The notes under the pieces: generated by a model
Databases searched by the model: none
The model's input: the letters and a program-made list of their open reading frames with translations, nothing else
Told to the model about the DNA's origin: nothing
Shown: in pieces, positions 9,966 to 23,134 of the stretch
Numbering within the stretch: the stretch's first letter is position 1
How the letters are laid out: the number at the start of each line of letters is the position of its first letter
Made by a program: the position numbers and the translations under genes
Assembly (NCBI GenBank): GCA_026398615.1
Contig: JAPLSN010000009.1
Coordinates: forward strand, 1 to 32,178
Reading direction: 5' to 3'
DNA: 32,178 nucleotides
Source of the DNA: Spirochaetota bacterium
GTDB lineage: Bacteria; Spirochaetota; Spirochaetia; Treponematales; UBA12059

Positions 9966-10322
9966 ATGAGAAATGCCGACAAGTTCCGGTCGGATGTCGA
10001 TCGCTGGGCGAAAGCGCCGCCGGATCCGGAACGCCTGCGCGAGCTCCTCTGCCGCAGTTTCCCCACGTTGCCGCGCGACACCATGGATGGCGTGTTCTAC
10101 GCTTTCCGGGAACGCCTCGATGCCGCGCCCGGAGGCTCGGAAGCTCCCCTGGAATGGCTCGGGACCGTCGCTTCCATCTTCGAACTCGACTACGACGGGA
10201 CTCCGCTCGCGGCCGCCGACTGGGACGAACTGCGGGAGATCGTCGAGGCCGACTCCGGCGAAATGGACCTGGATGTCCTCACCTACGTCATGGCGCTCCT
10301 GCTCGAGCACGGCGGCATCTGA
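9966..10322 (+). CDS. Small acidic protein of unknown function
   Basis: This 118-residue protein is not recognised. It is acidic and predicted mostly helical, without signal peptide or membrane segment. The C-terminal half ('ADWDELREIVEADSGEMDLD') is strongly acidic. The start codon sits 6 nt after a TATAGT box, suggesting a leaderless message. The stop is 2 nt before the GTG of the methyltransferase, so the two are very probably co-translated and may act together. Confidence 0.75.
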   Translation: MRNADKFRSDVDRWAKAPPDPERLRELLCRSFPTLPRDTMDGVFYAFRERLDAAPGGSEAPLEWLGTVASIFELDYDGTPLAAADWDELREIVEADSGEMDLDVLTYVMALLLEHGGI

Positions 10323-10324
10323 TC

Positions 10325-11068
10325 GTGGCCGAGTGGTTCGCCGATCCCGATTTCTGGGCCGGGTTCGCCCCGGTCATGTTCGACGGCGAACGATGGGCCG
10401 AGGTTCCCGCGGTCGTGGACGGCATCGAGCGCCTGGCGGGGCTGAGGCCGGGTGCCGCGGTCCTCGACCTGTGCTGCGGCCCGGGGCGGCATGCCCTCGA
10501 GCTGGCCGCCCGGGGCTACAGGGTCACCGGCGTGGATATCACCGAAAGTTTCCTGGAAGCCGCCCGCGGAAGCGCGGCCGACCGCGCTCTCGATATCGAA
10601 TTCGTGAACGCCGACGCCCGGGTCTTCGAACGGCCCGGGGCCTTCGCTCTCTGCGTCAACCTCTTCACGTCCATCGGCTATTTCGCTTCCTCCGACGAAG
10701 ATCTCGCCCTGGTGCGCCGCGTGTTCTCGTCGCTCGCGGACGGCGGGGTTTTTATCGTGGAAACCCTGGGGGAGCGTCTGGCACGGCGGGATTTCGTCGG
10801 ATCCGAACGCTTCAAGCGCGAGGGGTGGACGGTGGAATCGCGCTACGAGCCTGTGTGCGATTGGGAAGCGCTGCAAACGAGGTGGGTGATCACCCGCGGG
10901 ACCGAGCGGCGGGAACGCCGATTTGTCCAACGGCTCTATTCCGAGGAACGCATGGAGTCCGTTCTCGGGAGCGCGGGTTTCGTCGGGATTGAATTTCGGG
11001 GTTCGTGGGCCGGGGCTGCCTATGACGCCTCGGCGACACAGTTCATCGCCATCGCCAGGAAATCCTGA
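10325..11068 (+). CDS. Class I SAM-dependent methyltransferase
   Basis: This 247-residue protein has the Rossmann-like methyltransferase core. Motif I is VLDLCCGPGRHALELA (46-61), followed by 'GVDITESFL' (motif II acidic end) and 'NADARVF' (motif III). Later, 'CVNLFTSIGYF' occupies the motif IV region. The substrate is unknown; relatives are usually annotated as small-molecule methyltransferases. The GTG start is 2 nt after the preceding stop and has only a poor Shine-Dalgarno sequence, so it probably depends on translational coupling. The 154-nt gap to the next gene holds a small hairpin (CGGCG ttat CGCCG) and no obvious terminator. Confidence 0.85.
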   Translation: MAEWFADPDFWAGFAPVMFDGERWAEVPAVVDGIERLAGLRPGAAVLDLCCGPGRHALELAARGYRVTGVDITESFLEAARGSAADRALDIEFVNADARVFERPGAFALCVNLFTSIGYFASSDEDLALVRRVFSSLADGGVFIVETLGERLARRDFVGSERFKREGWTVESRYEPVCDWEALQTRWVITRGTERRERRFVQRLYSEERMESVLGSAGFVGIEFRGSWAGAAYDASATQFIAIARKS

Positions 11069-11222: not shown

Positions 11223-12191
11223 ATGTCTGATACGCGGATTGGCATCAAGCTGGCGAACGGCGAATTCTACCCCATACTTGCCGACGGCGAAGCCGCGGCG
11301 AAGCGTCTCGTCGTCACGACCGTCTCCGACGAACAGCCGAGCGTCCAGATCGACCTTTACCGGGGGATGGGGCCGGTGGTCGAGAACGCCTCGTACATCG
11401 GCAGTCTCGTGATCGAGAACATCTCGCCCATGCCCAAGGGCGATCCCGACATCGCGCTCGAACTACGCCTGGACGGGGAGGGCAACCTCACCGTCACGGG
11501 ATCGGAAGAGACGTCGGGCGAAAGCCAGAAGCTCTCGGTGTCGCTCACGGCCCTGTCGAACGAACAGACTTACGAGATCCCCGATTTCGAATTCGAGGAT
11601 GCCGGCACGCCCGTCTCCGACTCGGGACTGGAGTCGTTCTCGCGCGAAGCGGGCCCGGACGGGAATCCCTTCGAAACCATGGGGGATGAAGAGGCGGCCC
11701 CGGGAGTGCTCTCCGACGAGGACCTGTACGGCACCCTGACTGGATCCAAGCCGGTATCGAGCCCGGCCGCCGGGAGCCGCCCGCGCCTGCCCTGGATCAT
11801 CCTTTTCGTCGTCGCTGGGCTGATCCTCGCCTTGGTGTTCAGTTTCCTCGTGTACAGGTGCGCCACGGGAACTCCTGCCGCGGCCGCCAAGCCCGCGGCC
11901 ACGACGCCCGCTCCCGCGGCCACGACGCCGGCTCCCGCGGCCACGACGCCGGCTCCCGCGGCCACGACGCCGGCTCCCGTCCAGGGCGCTACGCCGCCGA
12001 CGACACCGGTCGTTCCCCCCAAGCAAAATCCGGGGGTCTGGTACAAGATCAAGTGGGGCGATACCCTGTGGGATCTAGCGTATGTATTTTACCGTGATCC
12101 TTGGCTCTATCCCAGGATCGCAAAGGCGAACAAGCTCAAGAATCCGAACCGGATCATCGCCGGTGCGTCGATCTTCATTCCACCCCGTTGA
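11223..12191 (+). CDS. Hsp70-substrate-domain / transmembrane / LysM fusion protein
   Basis: This 322-residue protein has three parts. Residues 4-95 ('IGIKLANGEFYPIL', 'RLVVTTVSDEQPSVQIDLYRG', 'YIGSLVIENISPMPKGDPDI') match the beta-sandwich substrate-binding domain of DnaK, without an ATPase domain. After an acidic linker there is one transmembrane helix (190-211). Outside it follow an Ala-Thr-Pro linker with four AATTPAP repeats (225-252) and a C-terminal LysM domain (272-320, 'WYKIKWGDTLWDLAYVFYRDPW'). With no signal peptide, the chaperone-like part should be cytosolic and the LysM part periplasmic, bound to peptidoglycan. I recall similar proteins in treponemes; their function is not known to me. 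GGAAGG 5 nt before the ATG fixes the start. A strong terminator follows. Confidence 0.85.
   Translation: MSDTRIGIKLANGEFYPILADGEAAAKRLVVTTVSDEQPSVQIDLYRGMGPVVENASYIGSLVIENISPMPKGDPDIALELRLDGEGNLTVTGSEETSGESQKLSVSLTALSNEQTYEIPDFEFEDAGTPVSDSGLESFSREAGPDGNPFETMGDEEAAPGVLSDEDLYGTLTGSKPVSSPAAGSRPRLPWIILFVVAGLILALVFSFLVYRCATGTPAAAAKPAATTPAPAATTPAPAATTPAPAATTPAPVQGATPPTTPVVPPKQNPGVWYKIKWGDTLWDLAYVFYRDPWLYPRIAKANKLKNPNRIIAGASIFIPPR
11892..11979 (+). repeat. 21-bp tandem repeat, about 4 copies, in the LysM-protein linker
   Basis: A 21-bp unit (CCCGCGGCCACGACGCCGGC plus T) occurs four times in tandem, the first copy with one mismatch. It encodes the PAATTPA heptad of the periplasmic linker. In-frame copy changes would alter the reach between membrane and cell wall. 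Confidence 0.9.
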
Positions 12192-12221
12192 GGTCGTGAT
12201 GGTTCAGAACATCGTTCGAAG

Positions 12222-12243
12222 GCCCGCGAGAGCGGGCTTTTTT
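12222..12243 (+). terminator. Intrinsic terminator after the LysM gene
   Basis: The stem GCCCGC/GCGGGC with a GAGA tetraloop is followed directly by TTTTTT, 30 nt after the LysM stop codon. Confidence 0.9.
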
Positions 12244-19918: not shown

Positions 19919-22900
19919 TCAGGTCTTCGATCCGAGTTCCAGGATCAGTTCCACTTCGCCGCGCGAAAGCTTGACCGTCCGCGCGATCTCCTCGACCGTC
20001 CAGCCCTGGTGGGCGAGCTTCCGGACCGTTTCCTGGACGCTTACTGACGGTGCGCCGCGCTCCTTCTTGCCCGATCCCGCCTCTTCCTTGAGCAGGGAGT
20101 TGAGCAGCTTGAGCTGGTCGGTGGCTTTCCGGTTGATCTCCTCCAGGCGGGTTTCGGTGCGCGCGAGCCATTCGCGGGCCTTGCCGACTTCTTCGGAGCG
20201 CTTTTCGAGATCAGCCATCGCGGTTTCGATCCCTTCCAGTTTTTCCGCCGCGACGTCGATCTTCTCCTTGCCGTCGAGCACGAAATCGATGGAGCGCCCG
20301 AGTTCGGCCACCCGTTCGGGGTAACCCTTCACCGCGGCGTCCAGCTCGCGCACCGTCTTCTCGAGTCCCTGGACCGCGGCGAAATTCTTGTCCACGGCGT
20401 CGATCGTCGTGTCGAGGATGTTGGATTTCTTTTCGAGGCGCTGGTACTTGGACTCCGCCTCGCTCGAAAGCTCGGAAAGCTTGCGCACTTCCGCCTGGAT
20501 CTGCGTGAGCGCGTCGCCCGAGGAATTGACCTGCGCCAGCTTGCGGTCGACCTCCGCCGAGAGCGCGAGCAGGCGGTTGAAATCCTCTTCCAGCGCGTCG
20601 ACCCGCCGCTTTTCGGCGGTGAAGCGGCCGAGCTTCTGGTTCAGATCCTCCTCGAGCTTCCTGACGGCGGTCATGCGGTTGTCGATTTCGGCCAGCTCCC
20701 CGCGCCTGGATTCCACGCGGGCGGCTTCGGCCTTGAGGCCTTCGATCCGTTCGGCGAGCCCGGCGCGGAGTTCGTCCGCGCGTTCGAAGAGCTTGGTCTG
20801 CGAGGTGAAATCCTTGACGCGCCGGTCGATGTCCGCGACGTGGGCCTGGCGTTCGCGCGATTCCTGGTCGAAGCGGGCGAGGACCTGCTTTTCCCCCGAC
20901 TCGAGCCGCTCGCGAGCTTCCTGCGCCGACCTGCGGAAATCCTCCTGGGCAAGGGCTATCTCGTCCTCGATCTCCTTTGCCCGTCTGGCGGCGTCGGCGG
21001 ACAGGCCGTCACGGGTCCGGGTGAAATCGCGCAGGGTTTCGGAGGTCTGCTCGGAGAGCTCGGTGCGGAACCGGGCGATCTCCGCGGCGTACGAGGAGAT
21101 TTTCTGGGAAAGGGATGCGTGCTCCGTCTCCGCTTCCCTGATGGCCTTGTGCACGGATTCGCGGTGGGCCTTCGTGTCGCGCTCGGATTGATCCCTCGCA
21201 TTTTTTTCCGCGGACGCCCAGTCCTTGCGGGCCGATTCCGACAACTTCCCGAGGGATGCGTCGAGCTCGGTTTTCCAGCCGGACAGCTTGACTTCGACGT
21301 CCTCGCTCCTCGTTTTCAGGCCCGAGAAGAAGTCGTCCTCGAAGAGCCTGAGCTTTTCCGAGACGTTCGAATAGGCCTGGGTCTTGAGGACGTTGAGGTC
21401 CTTTTCGATCGACTCCATGGACGAACGCATCCTGTCGTACTCGGCCTTCATCTCGGCTTCGAACGAAATCTTCCGTTCGGCGAAATCGCGGCCGAAACGC
21501 TCGAAGTCCTCGCCGACGGCGCGTTGGACGCCGGTCATGGTTTCGCGGAGCGCCCGGTCCAGCCGGCCGATGTCCGTCTCCGCGTCTTCCAGCTTGGCGA
21601 TCCGGCGCTCGACGTCCGAACGGTACGCTTCGAGCCGTCCGTCGAACCCTTCCGCGAGGCGTTTTTCGGTCTCCGCGCCTTCCCGCGCGATCTTTTCGTT
21701 GAGGGCAAGCACGATCTCCTTGCCGCGGCGGTCGGTCTCCGCGGCTTCGATCTCGAGGGCGACGGCGCGATCGACGAGCTTCCCCGCGGTTTCCTCGACC
21801 CCGATCCTGGCTTTTTCGATCGCCGCGCCGGCTTCGGAAGCCACCCGTTTTTCGGCGTCCGCGAGTTCCTTCGCCATCCGCTCGCCCATGGCCCTGGTCG
21901 CTTCCTTCGCCCGGGCTTCGGCGCCCGAGAGCTCGGACTGCAGCGCGGACGCGCCGTCGGTGAAATTCCTCGTCGCTTCCTCGAGTTCGCGCTTCGATTC
22001 CGCGACGGATTCCCTCGTGGAGGATTTCAGCTCGGCCTGGCGCCTGACGAGGTCTTCCTGGAGGGCTTTCAGGTTGTCCTTCACCTTGAGGCCGAGCGCG
22101 TCCGCCAGCTCGACGAACTTCCGCTCGACGCGGCCGTAGCGTTCCTCGTAGAGTTTTTCCGCGTCCGCCACGCGGCTTTCCGCCGCGCCGATCCTGGCGG
22201 CCAGGCGTTCGGCTTCCGCCGTCATCTCCGCCCGGTTGCCTTCGATCAGTTCTTCGGCTTCCTTCTGCCATTCGGACTTCACGGACCTGGCGAGGGCTTG
22301 CGCCTCGACGAGGCGGTCCTTGGCGGCTTGCTGTACGGTCTGGAACTTGGATTCGAGGGCTTCCCTGAGCTTGTCGCCCCGGCCGTCGATCTGGGCCTTG
22401 AGCTTTTCGTAGGTGGCGTCCTCGAGGGATTCGGCTTCCGCCCTGGCGCGCTTGAACGCGTCGGCGAGCATCGCCTCGATCTCGGCGGCGCGGAACCTGG
22501 CGCGTTCGGCGGCTTCACGGTAGGCGGCCTGGACCGACTGGGCTTTCTCGTCCGCGCGCGAGGCGAGGCCATCGATCTCGGCGGAAACTTCGCCGAGCCT
22601 GCGGTCGGCTTCCTCGGAAACGCCGTCCCTGACCTGCCTGAGCTCGTCGCGGGCATCCGCGATGAAACCCTCGCGCAAGACCGGGAGTTCGGCTTCGATG
22701 AGGTCCATCGATTCACGGGCTTTTTCGAGCTTGCCTGAGACCCCGTCCACGAAGACGCTCTCGTCGTGCATGCGCCGGAGGTTCGCGTCGACCGCCTGGG
22801 TCATCTTCATGAGCTGGGCGAGCGCATTGTCGTACTCGGCGATGCGGGATCCGATGGTTCCGATCGCCTCGGCGCGGGAATTGAGCGCTTCTTCCGCCTC

Positions 22901-23134
22901 GCGGACCTTGTCGAGCGCGACCCTGGCGGCTTTCTGCCGGACGTCCAGCTCGATCCCGTACGAGTTGAGATCCTCGCTCCGCTTGTCCACGTAGGCCGAA
23001 AGCTCGTCGCGGAGCCTGTCCGTGAATTTTTTCACCTTCTCCAGCGACCTGTTGCTGCGGTCGAGGAAACGATAGACGGCGAGCACGATGATGACGATTC
23101 CCAAGGTTATGAAATGGCCCGTTTCCAGCGGCAT
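19919..23134 (-). CDS. Giant membrane-anchored coiled-coil protein (SpiroCoCo family)
   Basis: This 1,071-residue protein begins with one transmembrane helix (about 7-24, 'HFITLGIVIIVLAVYRFLD'). About 1,000 residues of almost uninterrupted coiled coil follow, rich in Glu, Ala, Arg and Lys with heptad spacing. It ends in a short helix-turn-helix-like domain ('LAHQGWTVEEIARTVKLSRG', then EVELILEL). This fits the spirochaete-restricted SpiroCoCo family. The long coil should lie in the cytoplasm, tethered to the membrane; a cytoskeletal or spacer role is inference. GGGGAG 5 nt before the ATG supports the start. It lies 150 nt downstream of the CHAT gene and converges with deoD. Confidence 0.88.
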   Translation of the reverse strand: MPLETGHFITLGIVIIVLAVYRFLDRSNRSLEKVKKFTDRLRDELSAYVDKRSEDLNSYGIELDVRQKAARVALDKVREAEEALNSRAEAIGTIGSRIAEYDNALAQLMKMTQAVDANLRRMHDESVFVDGVSGKLEKARESMDLIEAELPVLREGFIADARDELRQVRDGVSEEADRRLGEVSAEIDGLASRADEKAQSVQAAYREAAERARFRAAEIEAMLADAFKRARAEAESLEDATYEKLKAQIDGRGDKLREALESKFQTVQQAAKDRLVEAQALARSVKSEWQKEAEELIEGNRAEMTAEAERLAARIGAAESRVADAEKLYEERYGRVERKFVELADALGLKVKDNLKALQEDLVRRQAELKSSTRESVAESKRELEEATRNFTDGASALQSELSGAEARAKEATRAMGERMAKELADAEKRVASEAGAAIEKARIGVEETAGKLVDRAVALEIEAAETDRRGKEIVLALNEKIAREGAETEKRLAEGFDGRLEAYRSDVERRIAKLEDAETDIGRLDRALRETMTGVQRAVGEDFERFGRDFAERKISFEAEMKAEYDRMRSSMESIEKDLNVLKTQAYSNVSEKLRLFEDDFFSGLKTRSEDVEVKLSGWKTELDASLGKLSESARKDWASAEKNARDQSERDTKAHRESVHKAIREAETEHASLSQKISSYAAEIARFRTELSEQTSETLRDFTRTRDGLSADAARRAKEIEDEIALAQEDFRRSAQEARERLESGEKQVLARFDQESRERQAHVADIDRRVKDFTSQTKLFERADELRAGLAERIEGLKAEAARVESRRGELAEIDNRMTAVRKLEEDLNQKLGRFTAEKRRVDALEEDFNRLLALSAEVDRKLAQVNSSGDALTQIQAEVRKLSELSSEAESKYQRLEKKSNILDTTIDAVDKNFAAVQGLEKTVRELDAAVKGYPERVAELGRSIDFVLDGKEKIDVAAEKLEGIETAMADLEKRSEEVGKAREWLARTETRLEEINRKATDQLKLLNSLLKEEAGSGKKERGAPSVSVQETVRKLAHQGWTVEEIARTVKLSRGEVELILELGSKT

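Follow-up and report, generated by a model that had tools for sequence, protein, structure and literature searches.

Hsp70 substrate binding is usually seen as an ATP-driven cycle. The Hsp70 substrate-binding domain (SBD), the LysM domain, and the spirochete transglycosylase BB0259 are all known parts. In Borrelia, BB0259 is required for passage of the hook through the peptidoglycan wall, and it binds FlgJ (PMC8517470). The last gene of the flgB superoperon in Borrelia is bb0264 (PMC11607428); the sequence at this position is a short Hsp70, the match to the locus tag having been made from gene order. Outside the spirochetes, an interaction between DnaK and flagellin has been described in Pseudomonas (PMC11816700).

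The DNA considered here, referred to below as the window, is a 32,178-nt stretch from a Spirochaetota bacterium. It encodes a protein in which an Hsp70-type SBD, a membrane helix, and a LysM domain are joined, and whose relatives, among the 295 Spirochaetota genomes sampled, are found only in those with flagellar genes. Neither this domain combination nor the flagellar pattern was found in the literature searched.

An Hsp70 substrate-binding fold on a membrane protein

The open reading frame begins with an ATG at 11223, ends with a TGA at 12189–12191 (+ strand), and translates to 322 amino acids (Table 1). The Pfam HSP70 profile matches it with an E value of 3.1e-10, over profile positions 417–503 of 599 only, and a phmmer search against the PDB aligns residues 6–108 with the SBD of HSPA1A (E 4.4e-10). 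An AlphaFold model of the head has eight strands (pLDDT 83). All of the best 50 Foldseek matches to this model are Hsp70 structures, aligned at their SBD, and VIA-align places model residues 1–117 on DnaK 394–514 (Z about 16, 24% identity). The head is unambiguously an Hsp70 SBD-beta fold; the significant sequence matches (Pfam, PDB) and the Foldseek results rule out a chance resemblance to Hsp70. The original prediction, from sequence alone, was of an Hsp70 peptide-binding beta-sandwich without the ATPase at residues 4–95, to be checked by structure prediction against DnaK. That comparison has now been made and agrees, with the domain extended to residues 4–115.

Table 1. Features of the SBD gene and its neighbors, in window coordinates.
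Feature	Position	Strand	Basis
Hsp70-SBD/transmembrane/LysM protein, 322 aa	11223..12191	+	Translation; Pfam HSP70 and LysM; full-length model
Hsp70 substrate-binding beta-sandwich, residues 4-115, predicted cytosolic	11232..11567	+	Pfam; phmmer vs PDB; AlphaFold; Foldseek; VIA-align
YEIPDFEF motif directly after the sandwich, conserved	11571..11594	+	P120 and F122 nearly invariant; model confidence low
Acidic disordered linker, residues 125-188	11595..11786	+	Net charge -14; pLDDT about 50
Single transmembrane helix, residues 189-215	11787..11867	+	Hydropathy 3.16; helix core pLDDT >90
Pro/Ala/Thr-rich spacer, predicted periplasmic	11868..12035	+	Translation
LysM domain, residues 272-320, predicted periplasmic	12036..12182	+	Pfam, over cut-off; model pLDDT 92-97
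Intrinsic terminator between SBD gene and transglycosylase	12218..12241	+	Fold -17.5 kcal/mol, z -3.6; T-tract
Flagellar-type lytic transglycosylase (BB0259 family), 722 aa	12271..14439	+	NF047373, over cut-off
SAM methyltransferase upstream of SBD gene	10154..11068	+	Pfam Methyltransf_25

With DnaK and other Hsp70s (PF00012) the family shares this eight-strand peptide-binding sandwich; unlike them it is membrane-anchored, and it is without the ATPase, interdomain linker, and alpha-helical lid. By Pfam and structure alignment, the window ORF begins at about DnaK 394 and includes no actin-like nucleotide-binding domain; the interdomain linker is absent as well, and in place of a lid the full-length model has just a short helix (residues 108–114), followed by disorder and the membrane helix. 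Because it has neither ATPase nor lid, the protein fails as an Hsp70 chaperone, while keeping the substrate-binding fold.

The same model gives the overall arrangement as SBD (1–115), a disordered stretch of about 70 acidic residues, the helix, a disordered Pro/Ala spacer, and LysM (272–319). The LysM is modeled as beta-alpha-alpha-beta, matches its Pfam profile over residues 274–320 (E 1.6e-6, 28.4 bits against a cut-off of 20.9), and is predicted to bind peptidoglycan. One membrane helix and one LysM, as originally read, are thus borne out, the helix by hydropathy as well as by the model. The spacer ahead of the LysM is partly encoded by a 21-bp tandem repeat (11892–11979; 4.2 copies, 98% matches) that translates as TTPAPAA. 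A single C-terminal LysM behind a Pro/Ala spacer is also what other LysM membrane proteins (PF01476) have; the differences are the predicted cytosolic Hsp70-type head of the present family, and that its LysM is dispensable.

The head was first read as cytosolic, and it probably is. No N-terminal hydrophobic signal or signal peptide is seen in the window protein, and in 85 of the 96 relatives compared, K/R residues are more numerous ahead of the helix than behind it; for these two reasons an N-in orientation is the probable one. The window protein itself does not add to the argument, its flanking K/R being even around the helix (2 vs. 2).

Gene neighbors and family distribution

The family is present in 109 of 295 Spirochaetota genomes by profile search, a count that excludes rows where the ORF is a complete Hsp70. 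When 84,980 species were scanned with a sequence pattern, 413 places were found, and the best 80 of the 413 are all labeled as spirochetes except for one MAG named “bacterium.” The spirochete distribution suggested initially is supported.

The next gene was recognized from the start as a lytic transglycosylase, and it scores 460 bits with NF047373 (BB0259_flg_lyt; cut-off 234, E 1e-137). In 65 of 80 neighborhood loci, taken from named genome records, it directly follows the SBD gene, and 13 of the remaining 15 loci hit a contig end. What the first reading lacked is the intervening terminator, which argues against strict cotranscription of the two genes in the window genome; it was found by RNA folding and not called by a promoter/terminator scanner. 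The SBD protein and BB0259 (LTase-Bb) have their conserved adjacency in common and, probably, the peptidoglycan side of flagellum assembly. BB0259, however, is an enzyme secreted to the periplasm, whereas the SBD protein lacks a catalytic domain and has been lost independently of the BB0259-type gene. On the other side, the methyltransferase is a conserved neighbor in the nearest families, and adjoins the transglycosylase in loci that lack the SBD gene. Farther along the window (19919–23134, − strand) is a gene for a SpiroCoCo-family coiled-coil protein, over the cut-offs of both NF047515 and NF047514.

Not all members have a LysM. In a Borrelia-like genome, the BB0260 position, immediately upstream of bb0259, is occupied by a 427-aa ORF (L177:4953–6236, − strand) that consists of a very divergent SBD, a stretch of acidic residues, and a helix at the C-terminus, with no LysM. 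The first profile scored Borrelia-like genomes only at the level of DnaK; a deeper one gave E values of 5e-12 to 2e-6, and in profile-profile comparison the Borrelia member matches the SBD family (97%, E 6e-11) and does not match DnaK at all. Members without LysM are also found in families f6, f8, f9, and f12, several of them directly beside the transglycosylase gene; in f6 there is another copy elsewhere that does have LysM. Since the Borrelia protein and those of several other lineages stop just after the membrane helix, the core of the family is head, acidic linker, and helix, with LysM an optional addition. The link between cell interior and wall that was first proposed is only partly supported: as LysM is absent in Borrelia and several other Spirochaetia families, in some cases right beside the transglycosylase, wall binding is not part of the conserved core.

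The Treponema pallidum counterpart beside the transglycosylase is probably TP0042. From its position, TPASS_0042 would be our locus L033; it is listed solely as a LysM protein. The literature search turned up no paper dealing with BB0260 or with what TP0042 does, and the Hsp70 domain of these members has gone unrecognized in the papers searched and in Pfam, which returns no match for the Borrelia ORF. A 163-aa ORF with a helix in family f14 (L250:4576–5067, − strand), upstream of and overlapping the transglycosylase gene, is possibly a worn-down member with SBD and helix; its match (E 0.2) is not significant.

Co-inheritance with flagellar genes

All 109 genomes carrying the SBD gene have flagellar genes: fliF is present in 107, and the remaining two (G007 and G312) have flhA. 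The SBD gene is absent from both groups of non-flagellated genomes. In family f4, 17 genomes have neither fliF nor flhA, and none of the 17 has it; eight of the nine flagellated f4 genomes do, and the ninth (G056, in 650 contigs) has flagellar genes and no SBD match. In family f13, probably Sphaerochaetaceae, all 26 genomes are without fliF and without the SBD family. These flagella-less lineages probably represent only two independent losses.

Other genes of the neighborhood behave differently. A transglycosylase over the cut-off is retained in 13 of the 17 non-flagellate f4 genomes, and in all nine loci examined there (L240–L248) the SBD gene is gone and the methyltransferase adjoins the transglycosylase. 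The SBD gene and the transglycosylase are therefore not an inseparable pair, and the BB0259-type enzyme is not purely flagellar in f4. The f13 genomes listed have no transglycosylase either. The short Hsp70 follows the SBD gene instead: it is found in the eight flagellated f4 genomes that carry the SBD gene and is missing from the 17 non-flagellate ones, where DnaK is the only Hsp70 match. In the f13 genomes tested no second whole Hsp70 was found, apart from one split DnaK. The first reading of the window had mentioned co-inheritance neither with flagella nor with the flagellar-operon short Hsp70.

The association holds in one direction. Flagella without the SBD family occur in genomes G042 and G045, in families f11, f16, and f19, and in numerous lineages from outside the class, so flagella as such do not require the gene.

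Possible functions of the head

We favor, with moderate confidence, a bitopic inner-membrane protein of spirochete flagellum biogenesis, whose lidless, ATPase-free Hsp70 head serves for docking. The head would probably be a permanently open, nucleotide-independent site for an extended segment of some cytosolic flagellar protein; candidates would be a component of the basal body or of the export apparatus, or else one of the clients of the flagellar-operon Hsp70. The flexible acidic linker and single membrane helix would position the head on the inner membrane; where present, as in many lineages, the periplasmic LysM would additionally anchor the protein to the wall, and the adjacently encoded transglycosylase, perhaps in physical contact with it, would open the peptidoglycan there for the hook. 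No report of a deletion phenotype or other experiment on the SBD gene was found in the literature searched. A more specific version is tentative and goes further than we would readily commit to: that the ATPase-free clamp evolved from a flagellum-dedicated Hsp70 and is now the fixed inner-membrane receptor of the periplasmic flagellum, capturing a cytosolic flagellar protein and marking the site of wall opening.

The protein could conceivably belong to cell shape rather than to flagella, as a scaffold by which a partner in the cytosol (from the cytoskeleton or the elongasome) is tied to peptidoglycan and the transglycosylase. It would then have disappeared with flagella only through loss of helical shape, which flagella-less cells may also have undergone. 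Most members have a LysM, and the conserved wall-lytic neighbor persists in non-flagellate genomes, both of which would suit such a role. So would a faint likeness of the YEIPDF motif to the tail of FtsZ, which in the window genome ends ELEIPTIIRDRRFAPDRSQA; mimicry of this tail is a weak lead. If this were its function, however, non-flagellate f4 genomes with a transglycosylase should often keep the SBD gene, and none of the 17 does; LysM, moreover, is missing in several lineages. We consider a wall scaffold unlikely.

Equally unlikely is that the beta-sandwich has been reused simply as a scaffold, its groove no longer functional and binding left to the acidic linker or the YEIPDF motif. The conservation of the peptide groove, proposed as a check along with the original prediction, bears directly on this. 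In an alignment whose sequences were not selected by sequence pattern, the groove-lining positions (as defined in DnaK) are more conserved than the remaining domain (p 2e-4), and also more conserved than its other hydrophobic positions taken alone (p 0.005). The positions corresponding to DnaK I401, V436, I438, I472, and Q433 are retained in most lineages. The arch pair is different, with A/V for DnaK M404/A429, and in the Borrelia members the groove loop is degraded, T32, T33, and Q38 not being retained; peptide binding in Borrelia is therefore doubtful. Groove conservation accordingly holds for most lineages and not for Borrelia. The YEIPDF motif, in which P120 and F122 are nearly invariant, is as conserved as the groove; it may be a second contact site, or could be the real one in the groove's place. 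In most lineages the groove is the more conserved part of the domain, which speaks against a dead groove.

The short Hsp70 raises another possibility. In the window genome, on contig C2, the last genes of the flagellar run are a short, lid-truncated Hsp70 (549 aa; L197:12725–15012, + strand) and, after it, a J-domain protein. The SBD protein might be a membrane adaptor for this pair, its head mimicking the SBD so as to hold the same clients or compete with the chaperone, and either handing flagellar clients over to it or receiving them from it at the membrane. The short Hsp70 at the bb0264 position has the nearest SBD by profile (E 1e-21 for short Hsp70s, 1e-15 for DnaK) and the same f4 pattern as flagella, so that it and the SBD gene are lost together. 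It differs in keeping its ATPase, in being soluble, and in lying within the flgB superoperon, where the SBD gene is instead beside the transglycosylase. In a tree, all SBD-family members fall into a single clade (98/95) that the short Hsp70s separate from DnaK, though neither its placement nor the rooting is settled; simple descent from DnaK is unsupported by this tree. The clade stands apart from both Hsp70 groups, contact with the Hsp70/J-protein pair is hypothetical, and we consider an adaptor role quite improbable.

A chance resemblance, or an N-out protein with a periplasmic head, can be given almost no weight: the even charges of the window protein would allow the latter, against which stand the missing N-terminal signal, the charge bias of its relatives, and a LysM at the opposite end, and the former is already refuted by the fold.

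A docking head at the inner membrane, by contrast, fits a protein that is probably part of how spirochetes build or place their flagella. Evolution has here kept the peptide-gripping half of an Hsp70 alone and fixed it to the membrane, and the protein offers a concrete candidate for how spirochetes may place their periplasmic flagella and coordinate the opening of the wall.
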